From Candidatus Uhrbacteria bacterium (lineage in GTDB: Bacteria; Patescibacteriota; Patescibacteriia; UBA9934; GWF2-40-263): a DNA stretch of 38,334 nucleotides. The notes under the pieces are model-generated. The model was not told the origin of the DNA. It saw only the letters and a program-made list of their open reading frames with translations, and did not search any database. Location: NCBI GenBank assembly GCA_016235605.1, contig JACRJW010000034.1:1-38334 (forward strand), read 5' to 3'. Every line of letters begins with the position of its first letter. Position 1 is the stretch's first letter. The position numbers were made by a program, and so were the translations under genes. Shown one piece after another: positions 12,051 to 18,032 of the stretch.

Positions 12051-13202
12051 TTAGTTCTTTCTTTTCCACTTTGCTGGTGCATGTGAGAGGGCTTTTTCCA
12101 TGATCGTCTTCTGCATCTTCACAAGTTTTTCTTGTGCCGCCAGGACATGCGCTGGAATTTCTGGAACTTTCTCACCATGTTTGCGGCGCACAACGCGATC
12201 AACAGCCAGGGCAATAAACTCGGCGGTGAGTCCCAGACCTTCTTGGATTTCGCGCGGAGTCCCAGACTCACCGAATCGATCTTGGACGCCGATCCGCTCC
12301 AGGGGAACAGGAGTTGTGAGTGCGAGAGTCTCGGCAACGGCGCCTGCCAGCCCGCCCGCCGCTTGAGCTTCCTCGACCGTGACGATCGCTCCTGTTTCTT
12401 TTGCCGCGCGGATGATCATCTTCACGTCCAAGGGTTTCACGGTGTGCATGTTTATGACGCGACACTCGATGCCGAACTCTTTTGAGAGACGCTCGGCTGC
12501 CAGTAAGGCTTCATACAACAGGGGACCTGCGCCGATGATCGTCACGTCAGTTCCCAACCGATATGTTTCTGCACGTCCCATTTTGAACGGCGTCTTTACG
12601 GTGGTGAAGATAGGCGACTTCTCGCGAGCGAATCGGAGATAGCATGGGCCACTCAGTTTGGCTACGGCCACCGTAGCCTTGCGTGTCTCAATCGCGTCAC
12701 AAGGGACGAACACGCACATGTTTGGCATGACTCGCATGATCGCGATGTCTTCGATCATCTGGTGTGTGGCGCCGTCAGGGCCCACCGAGACTCCAGCATG
12801 CGCGCCAGCGATTTTGACATTCGTGTTATTGAGCGCGACGGTCGTGCGGATTTGTTCCCAGTTGCGGCCTGGAGAAAAACAGGCATAGCTTGCGATAAAC
12901 GGCACCTTGCCCGCCATCGCCATCCCGGCCGCGATAGATGCCATGGATTGCTCGCTTACACCCATCTGCACAAACCGATCCGGGAAGGCTTCTTTGAACG
13001 GGAGGACGCGGGTAGACTCTGTGAGGTCAGCGCACAGGACGACGACGTTTTTGTCCTGTCGTCCAGCTTCAATCAAACCCTCGCCGAAGCCGTTGCGTGT
13101 CGGAACCTGTTTCAATTTTTTCTCATCAAACAAATCGCGGACAAGCCACGCCTCGCGGTTGATGCCTGTTTTTTGCTGCTTAGAAGGATTTGACGGATAC
13201 AT
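12051..13202 (-). CDS. Transketolase, C-terminal subunit
   Basis: VVVLCADLTESTRVLPFKEAFPDRFVQMGVSEQSMASIAAGMA; GPDGATHQMIEDIAIMRVMPNM; VEEAQAAGGLAGAVAE. Start likely at MYPSNPS. Confidence 0.93.
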   Translation of the reverse strand: MYPSNPSKQQKTGINREAWLVRDLFDEKKLKQVPTRNGFGEGLIEAGRQDKNVVVLCADLTESTRVLPFKEAFPDRFVQMGVSEQSMASIAAGMAMAGKVPFIASYACFSPGRNWEQIRTTVALNNTNVKIAGAHAGVSVGPDGATHQMIEDIAIMRVMPNMCVFVPCDAIETRKATVAVAKLSGPCYLRFAREKSPIFTTVKTPFKMGRAETYRLGTDVTIIGAGPLLYEALLAAERLSKEFGIECRVINMHTVKPLDVKMIIRAAKETGAIVTVEEAQAAGGLAGAVAETLALTTPVPLERIGVQDRFGESGTPREIQEGLGLTAEFIALAVDRVVRRKHGEKVPEIPAHVLAAQEKLVKMQKTIMEKALSHAPAKWKRKN

Positions 13203-13440
13203 AGAGATATGGTAGCTTATTTGTATCACCACGAAGAAGACCCCTGTGCGGTTCCGTCCGCATCGGGGGCTTTTTCTTTTCGAAGCTCTAAGAGTGGACG
13301 CATTCGTGATTGTCCGAGGTAAGTGCTATTTTGTTGCTCCTTTTTCACATCTGTATTTTCTTCTCAGTCTCTTTGTTCCTTATTATCCAAGCCAGATGAT
13401 CAGGACAAGTGGCATACTGGTGACAATCATAGCAAATCGC

Positions 13441-13469
13441 TTGACAAAAACCCAATTTTTCTGTATTGT
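13441..13469 (+). promoter_or_regulatory. sigma70-like promoter of the DGR target gene
   Basis: TTGACA-17 nt-TATTGT. Confidence 0.75.
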
Positions 13470-13559
13470 TGGTTCGTTCCAATCTAAGCATCCGGCTTGG
13501 AATTTGGGGCAAGACGTGCCTCTGCGCTCCGGCGCGACATAGGCACAACAGGAGAAGTC

Positions 13560-14297
13560 ATGGAAGCCATGATCGAGTTGGCGCTCCGGCGCCAGGCTGA
13601 AGAAGCACTGGCCCACGCTCTCGCGAACCCGGCGAAGTCCGAGATCGCGCGCGTCGCGTACCAGATGGTGATCAACGGCCAGACCGAGGCCGAGGTGCGC
13701 GCGTCGAAGGTGCACACGCCCAAGGTCGACCTCGCCGAGGAACGCCGCGTCGCTCTGGAGGCGAATTTCCGCAAGCGCGGGTTTGAGATCTCGGTTCCCA
13801 AGCCGAGCGTCTCCAACACCACGCTCAAGCGGTGGCGTCGCGAGGGACGAGAGTTGTTCTACCGTCCTGCGACCGCCCTCATGAGCTACGCCGCGTGGAT
13901 GTCCGCCCACGGCCAGGCCAAGCACTGGACTGTGGTCAACGAGAGCGACCGCGCGAAGGTCGGTTGGGAAGACGGAAAGGCGGGCTACTGGTTCACGACG
14001 CAGATCGTCCCTGCCTGCCCCCAGCTCAACACGAGCTGGAACGACCTCACCGCCTCGACGAAGCTCCTCTGCCTCGAGGAGTATGTGATCGTCTACTGGA
14101 CACACCACGACCTCACGGGTATCTGCATCGACGTCAGTACCTGGTGCTGGCTCCGTACGCGCTTCGGTCGGTGCGCCCTCAATGCCATCGTCACTGACGG
14201 TGAGGTGGGGGTCTCTAGGGACGATCCCGACAGCCTCTCGGTCCCGTATGCTTACGAAGGTGGCCGCGCCGTGGAAGTGGTCAAGAATGCTGCTTGA
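13560..14297 (+). CDS. DGR target (variable) protein; C-terminal variable-repeat region
   Basis: SD aggag then ATG at 13560. The last ~40 codons (RFGRCALNAIVTDGEVGVSRDDPDSLSVPYAYEGGRAVE) are a mutated copy of the TR at 14625-14746. Confidence 0.88.
   Translation: MEAMIELALRRQAEEALAHALANPAKSEIARVAYQMVINGQTEAEVRASKVHTPKVDLAEERRVALEANFRKRGFEISVPKPSVSNTTLKRWRREGRELFYRPATALMSYAAWMSAHGQAKHWTVVNESDRAKVGWEDGKAGYWFTTQIVPACPQLNTSWNDLTASTKLLCLEEYVIVYWTHHDLTGICIDVSTWCWLRTRFGRCALNAIVTDGEVGVSRDDPDSLSVPYAYEGGRAVEVVKNAA
14156..14277 (+). repeat. DGR variable repeat (VR), 122 bp
   Basis: Aligns without gaps to 14625-14746 (offset 469); 16 mismatches, 13 at TR adenines. 3' end is an identical GC-rich tract (ggtggccgcgccgtggaag). 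Confidence 0.93.
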
Positions 14298-14306
14298 ACC
14301 TTGACC
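14279..14306 (+). promoter_or_regulatory. Inverted repeat immediately 3' of VR (candidate DGR homing hairpin/cruciform)
   Basis: GGTCAAG-14 nt-CTTGACC beginning 2 nt after the end of TR/VR identity. Confidence 0.5.
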
Positions 14307-14368
14307 CCCTGCCCTGCTCTTGCTACCAACCGGTACTAGAGTAGGGCTATTAATTTTGCTTTGAATTT

Positions 14369-14377
14369 TGCTACAAT
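14369..14377 (+). promoter_or_regulatory. Candidate extended -10 promoter for the TR RNA
   Basis: TGCTACAAT about 250 nt upstream of TR; no clear -35. Confidence 0.35.
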
Positions 14378-14624
14378 CATTTTGGTGAAGGTTCGTAGAC
14401 TGACAAGCAGAAACTTGTCGGTTACCAACATCCTACTGTCACCCACGAGCATCCGGTTCAAAATGACCGGAGAAGTCGGTTACGGTGAGTAAACAGTTGA
14501 ACCACTTCGTGCCGTTTCTAAGATGGATCGCCACTGGGTCTGTCCGTCCGAATACATTTCCGGATCCCGGAATTCAGGAGGTGACCCACGGGTTCCCTCT
14601 GGTGAGTAAGGAAGGAAGCGGCGC

Positions 14625-14746
14625 AACGCGCTTCGGTCAGAGCGCCCTCAATGCCAACGACAACGACGGTGAGGTGAGGGTCAACAGGAACGATCCCGAC
14701 AACCTCTCGGTCCCGTATGACAACGAAGGTGGCCGCGCCGTGGAAG
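14625..14746 (+). repeat. DGR template repeat (TR), 122 bp
   Basis: Adenine-containing (AAC/GAC-rich) copy of VR: aacgcgcttcggtcagagcgccctcaatgccaacgacaacgacgg...gacaacgaaggtggccgcgccgtggaag. Confidence 0.93.
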
Positions 14747-14756
14747 CCGTCAACTG

Positions 14757-15131
14757 TTAAGACACGAGACCCAACCGGCCTCGTGTCTTCTTTCGCCAGC
14801 CTCCAAGCATACGTCCAATTTCCATGAGCTGGTTTTCCCGGTAGATGTAACCCTCACGTTTATAAATTCCTAGGTCATACGTGAGACGTACGAGGATTTT
14901 CACAAGGTCGAGTGTTCGTTGCAGTCGGTCGAGTAGGACGAGACGTTCAGGGATCGGTAGAGAATTTGCTTCCCAGATTCCTTCGATGAGTTGAAGTGTA
15001 CGCATTTTTAATGTTTCACCAACGGCGTGCCGTTCTGTTTTTGGAAACCTGATGACGTCAGTGTGCAGAAGCTTGTACCATTCATACAATTTATGAACCA
15101 ATCCGAATTCTTCACCGGGAAACCCAGTCAA
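14757..15131 (-). CDS. avd: Avd-like DGR accessory protein (four-helix bundle family)
   Basis: GLVHKLYEWYKLLHTDVIRFPKTERHAVGETLKMRTLQLIEGIWEA...LDRLQRTLDLVKILVRLTYDLGIYKREGYIYRENQLMEIGRMLGGWRKK, typical of the Avd/23S-IVP four-helix-bundle family; adjacent to TR and RT. Only a TTG start in the present frame. Confidence 0.82.
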   Translation of the reverse strand: MTGFPGEEFGLVHKLYEWYKLLHTDVIRFPKTERHAVGETLKMRTLQLIEGIWEANSLPIPERLVLLDRLQRTLDLVKILVRLTYDLGIYKREGYIYRENQLMEIGRMLGGWRKKTRGRLGLVS

Positions 15132-15150
15132 CCATCGATCGAATTCGGTC

Positions 15151-15161
15151 GGGGGGGGGGG
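15151..15161 (+). repeat. Homopolymeric G tract (11 G) at the Avd/RT head-to-head junction
   Basis: ggtc-GGGGGGGGGGG-tacttc. Confidence 0.95.
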
Positions 15162-15208
15162 TACTTCAAAGGCATACCTTATTTAAGGATGTCATTGCGC
15201 TAGAAAAT

Positions 15209-16210
15209 TTGTTTGAAGCTTGGGAGGTATTCCATCGTGGGAAAATGGCCAAACAAGATGTCCTGGATTTCTCCATGAGGCTTGAGGACGAATTATTTGA
15301 CCTAGCGCACGACCTTGGAAACGGATCGTACCATCATGGCTGGTATGAGCGATTTTACATTCACGACCCCAAGCGCAGGTATATAAGCAAAGCAAGTGTG
15401 CGGGATCGAGTCTTACACCAAGCGCTTGTTGGCGTGGTGGAACCGATGTTTGATCCAACCTTCATTTTCGATTCGTTTTCTTCTCGTAAAGGGAAGGGGA
15501 CACATGCGGCGATTGACCGTCTTGAAGATTTTTTAAGACGCGGATCTCGCAATGGCTCGAACACGATTTATGCGCTCAAATGCGATGTATCGAAATTTTT
15601 CGATTCGATACAGCATGATGTGCTTATGGGGATGCTCAGACGGCGTATCATCGACGAACCGTTGCTAGGACTTGTAGGGCAGGTCGTTACAAGTCACACG
15701 TCTCATCAAGGAACGTCGTGCGGGCTTCCACTTGGGAATGTCACAAGCCAACTTTTTGCGAACATCTATCTCAATGGATTCGACCATTGGGTGAAGGAGC
15801 ACCTGAGGGTACGATGGTACATTCGGTTTTGTGATGATTTCATTTTGCTTCACGAGAGTCGTCAGTTCTTGGAATCAGCCATTGTGCAAATTGACTCGTA
15901 TCTATCGCAACATCTCCATCTACAGCTTCATCCGTATAAAGTTTCTCTTCGGACATATCAGCAAGGCATCGATTTTCTTGGTTGGGTGTTGAGGCCAAGT
16001 GTACGTACGATGCGAACGAAAACGTGCAGGCGCCTATCTCACCGTGTGGATGGTCTGGTGTCACAGTATAGAGAAACAGGAACCCTACAAGAGCGTTTCA
16101 GTGAGACCGTCCAGTCTTGTTTAGCGGCCTTTGATCACGGTCAGGGATTTAGGAATCAGGAGCGACTCATTCATTCAGTAAGACAGATGAAGTTTAAGAA
16201 TCTTCAATAG
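15209..16210 (+). CDS. DGR-type reverse transcriptase
   Basis: RDRVLHQALVGVVEPMFDPTFIFDSFSSRKGKGTHAAIDRLEDF; YALKCDVSKFFDSI; GLPLGNVTSQLFANIYLNGFDHWVKEHL; RFCDDFILL; GIDFLGWVL. The frame is open upstream to 15056; TTG 15209 is the first standard start codon in frame, but homology-like sequence (HTLFKDVIALENL) precedes it. Confidence 0.93.
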   Translation: MFEAWEVFHRGKMAKQDVLDFSMRLEDELFDLAHDLGNGSYHHGWYERFYIHDPKRRYISKASVRDRVLHQALVGVVEPMFDPTFIFDSFSSRKGKGTHAAIDRLEDFLRRGSRNGSNTIYALKCDVSKFFDSIQHDVLMGMLRRRIIDEPLLGLVGQVVTSHTSHQGTSCGLPLGNVTSQLFANIYLNGFDHWVKEHLRVRWYIRFCDDFILLHESRQFLESAIVQIDSYLSQHLHLQLHPYKVSLRTYQQGIDFLGWVLRPSVRTMRTKTCRRLSHRVDGLVSQYRETGTLQERFSETVQSCLAAFDHGQGFRNQERLIHSVRQMKFKNLQ

Positions 16211-17132: not shown

Positions 17133-18032
17133 TTACTCATGTTCGCTTATGATTTTTCCTGAGAGCGTACGAAGCTGGTTGATGGCCAAATGGGCCTCTT
17201 GTCCAGGGCTTGGAGGTTTGCCGTGCCAGAGAAAGTCGTGCTCCATGAACTGCACGCCATAACCCGGAATGGTATCAGCGATGATGATGGTTGGTTTTTC
17301 ACTCACGCCATGAGCGCGTTCAACGGCTGTCACAAAATCACGAATCGAGTTGCCGGCACAGTGCTCCACGTTCAAGTTGAAGGCTTCAAATTTTGCCGCG
17401 AGCGGTTCAAGCGGCATGATTTCCTCGGTCGTGCCGTCGATCTGGATGTTGTTACGGTCGATCACGAACGTGCAGTTGTAGAGTTTGTTGCGCGAAGCAA
17501 ACAACATCGCCTCCCACGTTTGTCCAGCCGCGAGTTCGCCATCACTCATGAGGCAGTACACGCGCCAAGGTTTGCGATCCAGTAGAGCCGCGTACGCGAG
17601 CCCAACCGCTTGTGACGATCCTGACCCAAGCGGTCCCGACGTCGTCTCGACGCCCGGAAGTTTTTCTCGCTCAGGATGTCCTTGCAAAGGTGAACCCAAC
17701 TTACGCAGGGTCATCAAAAGTTTTTTGGGAAAGTAGCCGGCATGCGCCATCGCGGCATAGCGGATGGGACAGATGTGGCCGTTACTGAGGATCAATCGGT
17801 CACGGTCTTTCCATTCAGGATGTTTTGGATCGTGGACGAGGACATGAAGATAGAGCGCGGTGAAGATATCCGCCATGCCAAGCGGTCCAGCCGAGTGGCC
17901 GGAGCCTGCTTCCACAAGCATATCAATGAGGTCCTCGCGGATGAGTTGCGCCCTCTCCTCGAGCGCCTTGAGTTTTTTGTCGTGCAGATGCAAAGGCTTG
18001 CGAACCTTGGGACCTTGCGTGAGGTTGGGCAT
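17133..18032 (-). CDS. Transketolase, N-terminal (TPP-binding) subunit
   Basis: AGSGHSAGPLGMADIFTALY; DRLILSNGHICPIRYAAMAHAGYF; GPLGSGSSQAVGLAYA; MSDGELAAGQTWEAMLFAS. Confidence 0.93.
   Translation of the reverse strand: MPNLTQGPKVRKPLHLHDKKLKALEERAQLIREDLIDMLVEAGSGHSAGPLGMADIFTALYLHVLVHDPKHPEWKDRDRLILSNGHICPIRYAAMAHAGYFPKKLLMTLRKLGSPLQGHPEREKLPGVETTSGPLGSGSSQAVGLAYAALLDRKPWRVYCLMSDGELAAGQTWEAMLFASRNKLYNCTFVIDRNNIQIDGTTEEIMPLEPLAAKFEAFNLNVEHCAGNSIRDFVTAVERAHGVSEKPTIIIADTIPGYGVQFMEHDFLWHGKPPSPGQEAHLAINQLRTLSGKIISEHE

Follow-up and report, generated by a model that had tools for sequence, protein, structure and literature searches.

The window, by which we mean the whole stretch of DNA analysed here (38,334 nucleotides), is an entire 38 kb contig of a 1.2 Mb draft genome. 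The sequence-only reading had proposed that it carries a complete diversity-generating retroelement (DGR), and a target gene, a variable repeat (VR), a template repeat (TR), an avd gene and a DGR-type reverse transcriptase (RT) are indeed all present within 13560-16210. Judged from its sequence, this segment is a genuine complete DGR in Patescibacteria (CPR), in a Candidatus Uhrbacteria-type lineage. Its genes and repeats are arranged as follows.

13441..13469, plus strand: promoter-like site of the target gene (TTGACA-17-TATTGT, sigma-70-like), conserved in the sister species
13560..14297, plus strand: DGR target gene, 245 aa, with no recognised N-terminal domain and with the VR as its C-terminus
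14157..14284, plus strand: VR, from the ungapped direct repeat and its mismatch pattern
14626..14753, plus strand: TR, from the ungapped direct repeat and its mismatch pattern
14757..15175, minus strand: avd, start ATG 15175, 138-139 aa only at a tract length of 9 or 12
15093..16210, plus strand: RT, with ATG 15093 before the tract and the conserved part at 15209-16210
15151..15161, plus strand: G11 tract, in the overlapping 5′ ends of RT (plus) and avd (minus)

The VR and the TR are ungapped, 87% identical and 469 nt apart from start to start. This spacing is the one given in the sequence-only reading; the repeats measure 128 nt here and 122 bp there. As also claimed, one repeat forms the 3′ end of a coding gene: the VR closes the target frame, with the stop codon 13 nt past it. 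Over positions 14154-14270, 13 of the 18 mismatches fall at the 29 TR adenines (hypergeometric P 4e-6) and none falls at a VR adenine. The sister genome carries an orthologous DGR with the same target, the same 469-nt repeat spacing and a different VR, in which 18 of 21 mismatches are at TR adenines. At 32 positions both TRs have an adenine; the VRs of the two species differ at 20 of these and at 15 of the 97 others (odds ratio 9.1, P 9e-7), whereas none of the 32 adenines differs between the two TRs. The adenine-directed signature therefore holds both within the window and between two species, and the divergence of the VRs at TR-adenine columns indicates that adenine-directed rewriting has most likely gone on since the species split. 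The window VR also contains three C-to-T changes away from adenines, at 14195, 14216 and 14252. In each case the C adjoins adenines (AAC or ACA) and is kept in the sister VR; these changes could be slippage-type RT errors or later drift.

The neighbours of the DGR match in the sister species (split transketolase genes, a DUF4349 gene and a kinase gene). In both, the DGR and the DUF4349 gene lie between the C-terminal and N-terminal halves of the split transketolase (12051-13232 and 17133-18032 in the window). The nearest named relative is the Candidatus Uhrbacteria genome nzgw366, of the same genus, with an RT 79% identical.

Position 13441, where the segment singled out in the sequence-only reading begins, falls on the -35 box of what looks like a good sigma-70-type promoter, 13441..13469 being a candidate promoter of the target gene. 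An ortholog of the target 71% identical is found in the same genus (L003:3344-4087) and none beyond it among the 379 other genomes of the phylum that were sampled; over this sample the target family is narrow. The target has no match in Pfam, and no lectin fold can be assigned to it from Pfam or from its AlphaFold model, which is of low confidence (pLDDT 45). Profile comparison gave no kinship to the other DGR targets of the family. An NCBIfam acyltransferase match (9e-4), far below the cutoff, was taken as chance.

The RT matches Pfam RVT_1 (1.2e-23) and, with end-to-end coverage, the phage family phrog_1423 (5e-103). The best solved structure is 8ub7 (123 bits, 1.5e-34), which we take to be the BPP-1 DGR RT, the entry itself being labelled only 'Reverse transcriptase'; the next one is a group II intron RT at 73 bits. 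By score the RT is thus closest to a DGR RT, as the sequence-only reading had it, 8ub7 standing far above the group II intron RTs; on this measure there is no sign of a grouping with group II intron or retron RTs. The Avd-like open reading frame was also correctly recognised (Pfam bAvd 8e-11, above the cutoff; PHROG Avd 7e-17; NCBIfam Avd 7e-16, below the cutoff of that model), but its strand had been left unstated. The frame at 14757-15131 lies on the minus strand and extends to ATG 15175, so that avd is head-to-head with RT and tail-to-tail with the TR.

For comparison of this layout, about 40 related loci were gathered within the same family, and a further 60 elsewhere in the class. The VR precedes the TR in every VR/TR pair found among the collected loci, and wherever both genes can be read in a Patescibacteria locus, of the same family or of another, avd runs opposite to RT, whereas it is collinear in BPP-1 and in Leptolyngbya. 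The genome itself has two further DGRs of the same layout. The first (L033, on contig C36) has a target of about 914 aa with an AAA_5 domain; in the second (L034, on contig C30) 22 of 25 mismatches are at TR adenines and the RT is in two frames. It had been suggested that the layout might not be an established one, and an inverted avd, a putative 5′ RNA scaffold and a G-tract common to avd and RT were found. The predicted elements of the RNA are listed below.

14372..14377, plus strand: candidate -10 box (TACAAT) of the DGR RNA, a consensus match only
14384..14625, plus strand: 5′ leader of the DGR RNA, noncoding, with an inferred 5′ end
14487..14627, plus strand: match of covariance model R2 (RNA core, helices P1-P3), 21.3 bits, E 0.0047
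14492..14500, plus strand: leader strand of helix P0 (AACAGUUGA), from the unconstrained minimum free energy (MFE) fold
14509..14519, plus strand: 5′ strand of helix P1, MFE fold
14614..14624, plus strand: 3′ strand of helix P1, MFE fold, abutting the TR
14750..14758, plus strand: 3′ strand of helix P0 (UCAACUGUU), spanning the 3′ boundary of the TR
14759..14789, plus strand: hairpin directly after P0, terminator-like with a weak T-run (z -3.8), overlapping the antisense avd end

Between the target stop codon and the TR, the noncoding sequence is 88% identical to that of the sister, compared to 76% for the N-terminal part of the target and 77% for RT. The leader folds better than its shuffles (z -4.1), and -10-like boxes are found at about -225 to -285 from the TR in most loci of the family. 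RNAalifold analysis of the 17 loci with alignable leaders gave three helices, P1 (12 bp), P2 and P3, in which 18 of 24 pairs have compensatory changes. In an alignment of 47 loci, which was fitted to the structure, 23 of the 24 pairs have double (compensatory) changes, with 359 double-change cells compared to 98 ± 10 after shuffling and at most 115 in slid controls. A first covariance model, built from the 17 loci, found matches in 38 of the 73 sources unused in its training. A second, class-wide model (R2) was trained with the window excluded. Its best match in the window, at 14487-14627, ends at the start of the TR, and the next best scores 1.8; the score of the window's own RNA is modest (E 0.0047).

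The RNA core was detected in 86 of 380 genomes of the phylum, 73 of these outside the class, and as predicted by the models it is phylum-wide. RNA and RT occur together in 120 of the 129 RNA-positive genomes (odds ratio 83, P 7e-55). At gathering score Rfam gave no family in the DGR region of the window, and its only matches in 13300-15250 and in locus L066 were weak and at chance level. The RNA model had no match in the Leptolyngbya, Paraflavitalea and BPP-1 loci, the three taken from outside the phylum. Stand-alone leader RNAs in RT-less genomes were considered and rejected. Eight of nine were checked: some keep TR/VR or avd/RT fragments, one is at a contig end, and the others are remnant-like or have no recognisable DGR parts nearby. 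In loci L164-L171 the leader RNA is found without a full RT nearby; several of them are decayed or truncated DGRs, some with TR, VR or avd/RT fragments. In L142 and L139 the RNA model marks the likely position of a TR where no VR/TR pair was found; the target gene may therefore lie at a distance or on a different contig.

In the unconstrained fold of 14384-14790, residues 14492-14500 of the leader pair with 14750-14758, enclosing P1 and the TR, and the hairpin follows directly. This outer helix, P0, was analysed by scoring the leader from -160 to -80 relative to the TR with the TR end (-6 to +12) of the same locus and with those of all the others, using ungapped local complementarity with permutation and window controls. 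Whole-duplex scoring of leader and TR end with RNAduplex had given a weak signal, because long loops are allowed, and was dropped in favour of this measure. Cognate pairs outscore non-cognate ones with a z of 9.0 (n=28), an exploratory value, as the windows had been chosen after inspection of the first 30 loci. With windows unchanged, the other families of the class gave a z of 11.0 (n=55), and the use of one locus per family gave 5.6-7.5. Control windows are near zero (|z| about 2.6 or below), and scoring with VR ends is much weaker (6.5 compared to 14.3). P0 forms in the MFE folds of 65% of loci, against 21-39% with swapped tails; it is absent from the MFE fold in the remaining 35%, and the best scores vary. 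The reversed-tail control is above null (z 2.3-3.7), so part of the P0 signal may be due to composition. Since the tails are poorly alignable, the covariation of individual P0 pairs in a single alignment is moderate. As for the hairpin, a generic terminator scan of the window did not call it, while terminator-like hairpins with a T-run are found within 70 nt after the TR in 70 of 85 loci, compared to 4.8 expected.

These data can be read in another way. The element could be an ordinary DGR whose genes are merely rearranged, with priming still 3′ of the TR and the leader an unrelated regulatory RNA, for example a 3′ UTR element of the target gene or a regulator of avd/RT. A priming spacer on the 3′ side is the arrangement established for BPP-1 (PMC12875486). 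The leader lies downstream of the stop codon of the target gene, and some of it could share a transcript with that gene. However, the space 3′ of the TR is short, usually closed by the hairpin described above, and then runs into antisense avd. Moreover, the leader core abuts the TR and co-occurs with RT, the leader pairs with the TR 3′ end and not with target or VR sequence, and a -10-like box is located inside the spacer. We thus hold a regulatory RNA with 3′ priming to be quite unlikely and prefer a leader that serves as a priming scaffold. Such a scaffold would act from the 5′ side, which would give the RNA a retron-like topology.

The second unusual feature is the G-tract. The RT and avd starts are on opposite sides and strands of G11, and both genes would therefore be read through it. 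In the window, avd and RT are full-length at 9 or 12 G and truncated at 10 or 11. At G11 both genes are thus predicted to be off, and at G9 or G12 on. Most of 101 loci have a G-tract where avd and RT meet, whereas the window's own genome has runs of at least nine G at only five places, three of which are its three DGR junctions. Avd and RT need the same length class of the tract in 19 of 20 unambiguous loci (P 1e-8), and in 40 of 42 against 23.6 expected. Current tract lengths put 11 of these 40 class-sharing loci in the on state and 29 in the off state. The lengths, taken from draft assemblies, where those of homopolymers can be wrong, range from 7 to 12 in 57 loci and up to 15 in the 101-locus set. 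Close relatives differ in length: the window has 11 and its sister 10, and L104, L106, L108, L112 and L113 have 8, 9, 9, 10 and 9, respectively. Both on and off lengths, with the tract within the coding frame, are found among relatives.

A group of related RTs (L045-L050 and L071) has a G9-G12 run inside the frame, at the break point. Of six RTs in the subgroup with an in-frame tract, five have a broken frame; the G12 copy (L048) is intact. Programmed ribosomal frameshifting was considered for the split RTs and rejected, since the splits are at poly-G runs and tract-length phase fits better; the split RTs of L034 and L072 have no run at the break.

The tract could instead be a promoter or DNA-structure element between divergent genes, both proteins starting downstream of it. 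Its position would suit this role, its length could tune promoter spacing, and the RT has possible TTG starts past it (for example TTG 15209). Yet the frames from the starts on both sides are open through the tract at the same length modulo 3 in the 19 of 20 loci mentioned above, and a non-coding tract gives no reason for a common length class, all the less as this class itself varies between loci (0, 1 or 2). The related RTs that carry the tract inside the frame, intact only in the G12 copy, also argue for a coding role. A promoter or structural tract is accordingly very unlikely. We favour a coding tract: since avd and RT have a common length class, slippage should switch both together, and the pattern is, at the sequence level, the one that slipped-strand phase variation of the two DGR proteins together would leave. 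Switching within populations would follow from it.

An off state in the window may alternatively reflect decay, the element being an inactive DGR. G11 puts both genes out of frame, and 5 of the 18 core VR mismatches (14154-14270) are off TR adenines, a proportion that most relatives do not reach. But apart from the frame RT and Avd are intact, and the TR adenines are fully conserved with the sister (0/32) while the VRs differ at 20 of the 32. Furthermore, the sister likewise has an off length class (G10) and still shows 18 of 21 mismatches at adenines. Decay of the window element is thus a minor possibility beside a switched-off but intact one.

Taken together, the locus is probably a DGR of a Patescibacteria type, in which a 5′ RNA scaffold primes through P0 and a G-tract switches RT and avd on and off. 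The DGR RNA would run from the promoter through leader and TR to the hairpin, and through P0 the 3′ end of the TR would fold back on the leader. From a 2′-OH of the leader, RT-Avd sitting on the leader core would start the cDNA within the TR 3′ end; the core would thereby position cDNA priming, the task of the 3′ spacer in BPP-1. The adenine-mutated cDNA would then replace the VR. Slippage of the G-tract would shift RT and avd out of frame together and render the mutator phase-variable. For the DGRs of Patescibacteria at large, we lean, with somewhat less confidence, towards a permuted guide RNA with a retron-like fold-back and, in many of them, a single G-tract that makes hypermutation phase-variable.

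Detailed knowledge of how DGRs work comes from a single phage system. If our reading is true, a large lineage of cells that keeps its RNA scaffold on the opposite side of the template would show which parts of this mechanism are essential, namely the helix that sets the start site, and which can be moved. It would also link DGRs to retrons. The on/off tract common to both genes would answer the question of how a cell restrains a permanently encoded mutator, with few cells diversifying at random and most not. The predicted RNA would also be a searchable marker of DGRs where the RT or VR has been lost or sits on a different contig.

DGRs of CPR/Patescibacteria belong to RT clade 2 in the parts consulted of Roux et al. 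2021 (PMC8144416), and CLec-AAA targets are noted for them in those of PMC10907252. The window's element resembles the DGRs described in these passages in host group, in the presence of several DGRs per genome and in targets without recognised domains, and L033, with its AAA_5 target, recalls the CLec-AAA DGRs. The same passages describe neither an inverted avd nor a 5′ RNA scaffold nor a G-tract switch, of which an earlier description is possible. No paper in the literature searched reports a single tract that switches a hypermutation system through two genes. Novelty is judged here against that literature, and an earlier account of these CPR DGR features may exist. The poly-G/C contingency loci of Neisseria, Campylobacter and Helicobacter are alike in having a 5′ coding tract, lengths near 8-12 and a frame set modulo 3. 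In the present DGR, by contrast, a single tract lies in two overlapping genes of opposite orientation, and what it would switch is a hypermutation system.

The BPP-1 element (mtd-avd-TR-Sp-brt; AY029185) shares with the window the RT family, Avd, an ungapped VR/TR pair with adenine-directed differences, a VR at the 3′ end of the target, and VR and TR 3′ ends that differ in an IMH/IMH*-like manner. In BPP-1, however, avd points the same way as brt and is placed between the two repeats, whereas here it is inverted. BPP-1 has a structured 144-nt spacer 3′ of the TR, whereas here a structured, covarying element is 5′ of it; no BPP-1-type structured priming spacer was found between TR and RT in the window, where the hairpin and antisense avd are located instead. 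BPP-1 has no G or C tract of at least 7 and no match to the RNA model. It does show a comparable short complementarity, between Sp 48-58 and TR end 119-129 (the second best of the scan), near the priming adenine, which we take to be spacer nucleotide 56. The BPP-1 primer is an internal adenine of the 3′ spacer (PMC12875486). The simplest reading of both systems is that there is one start-site helix, for which BPP-1 would supply the second strand 3′ of the TR and the present element 5′ of it. In retrons (msr-msd), a structured RNA 5′ of the template is folded onto the template 3′ end and primes from a 2′-OH (PMC8867640). The RNA topology inferred here is alike, whereas the RT is DGR-like and is accompanied by Avd, a TR/VR pair and adenine mutagenesis.
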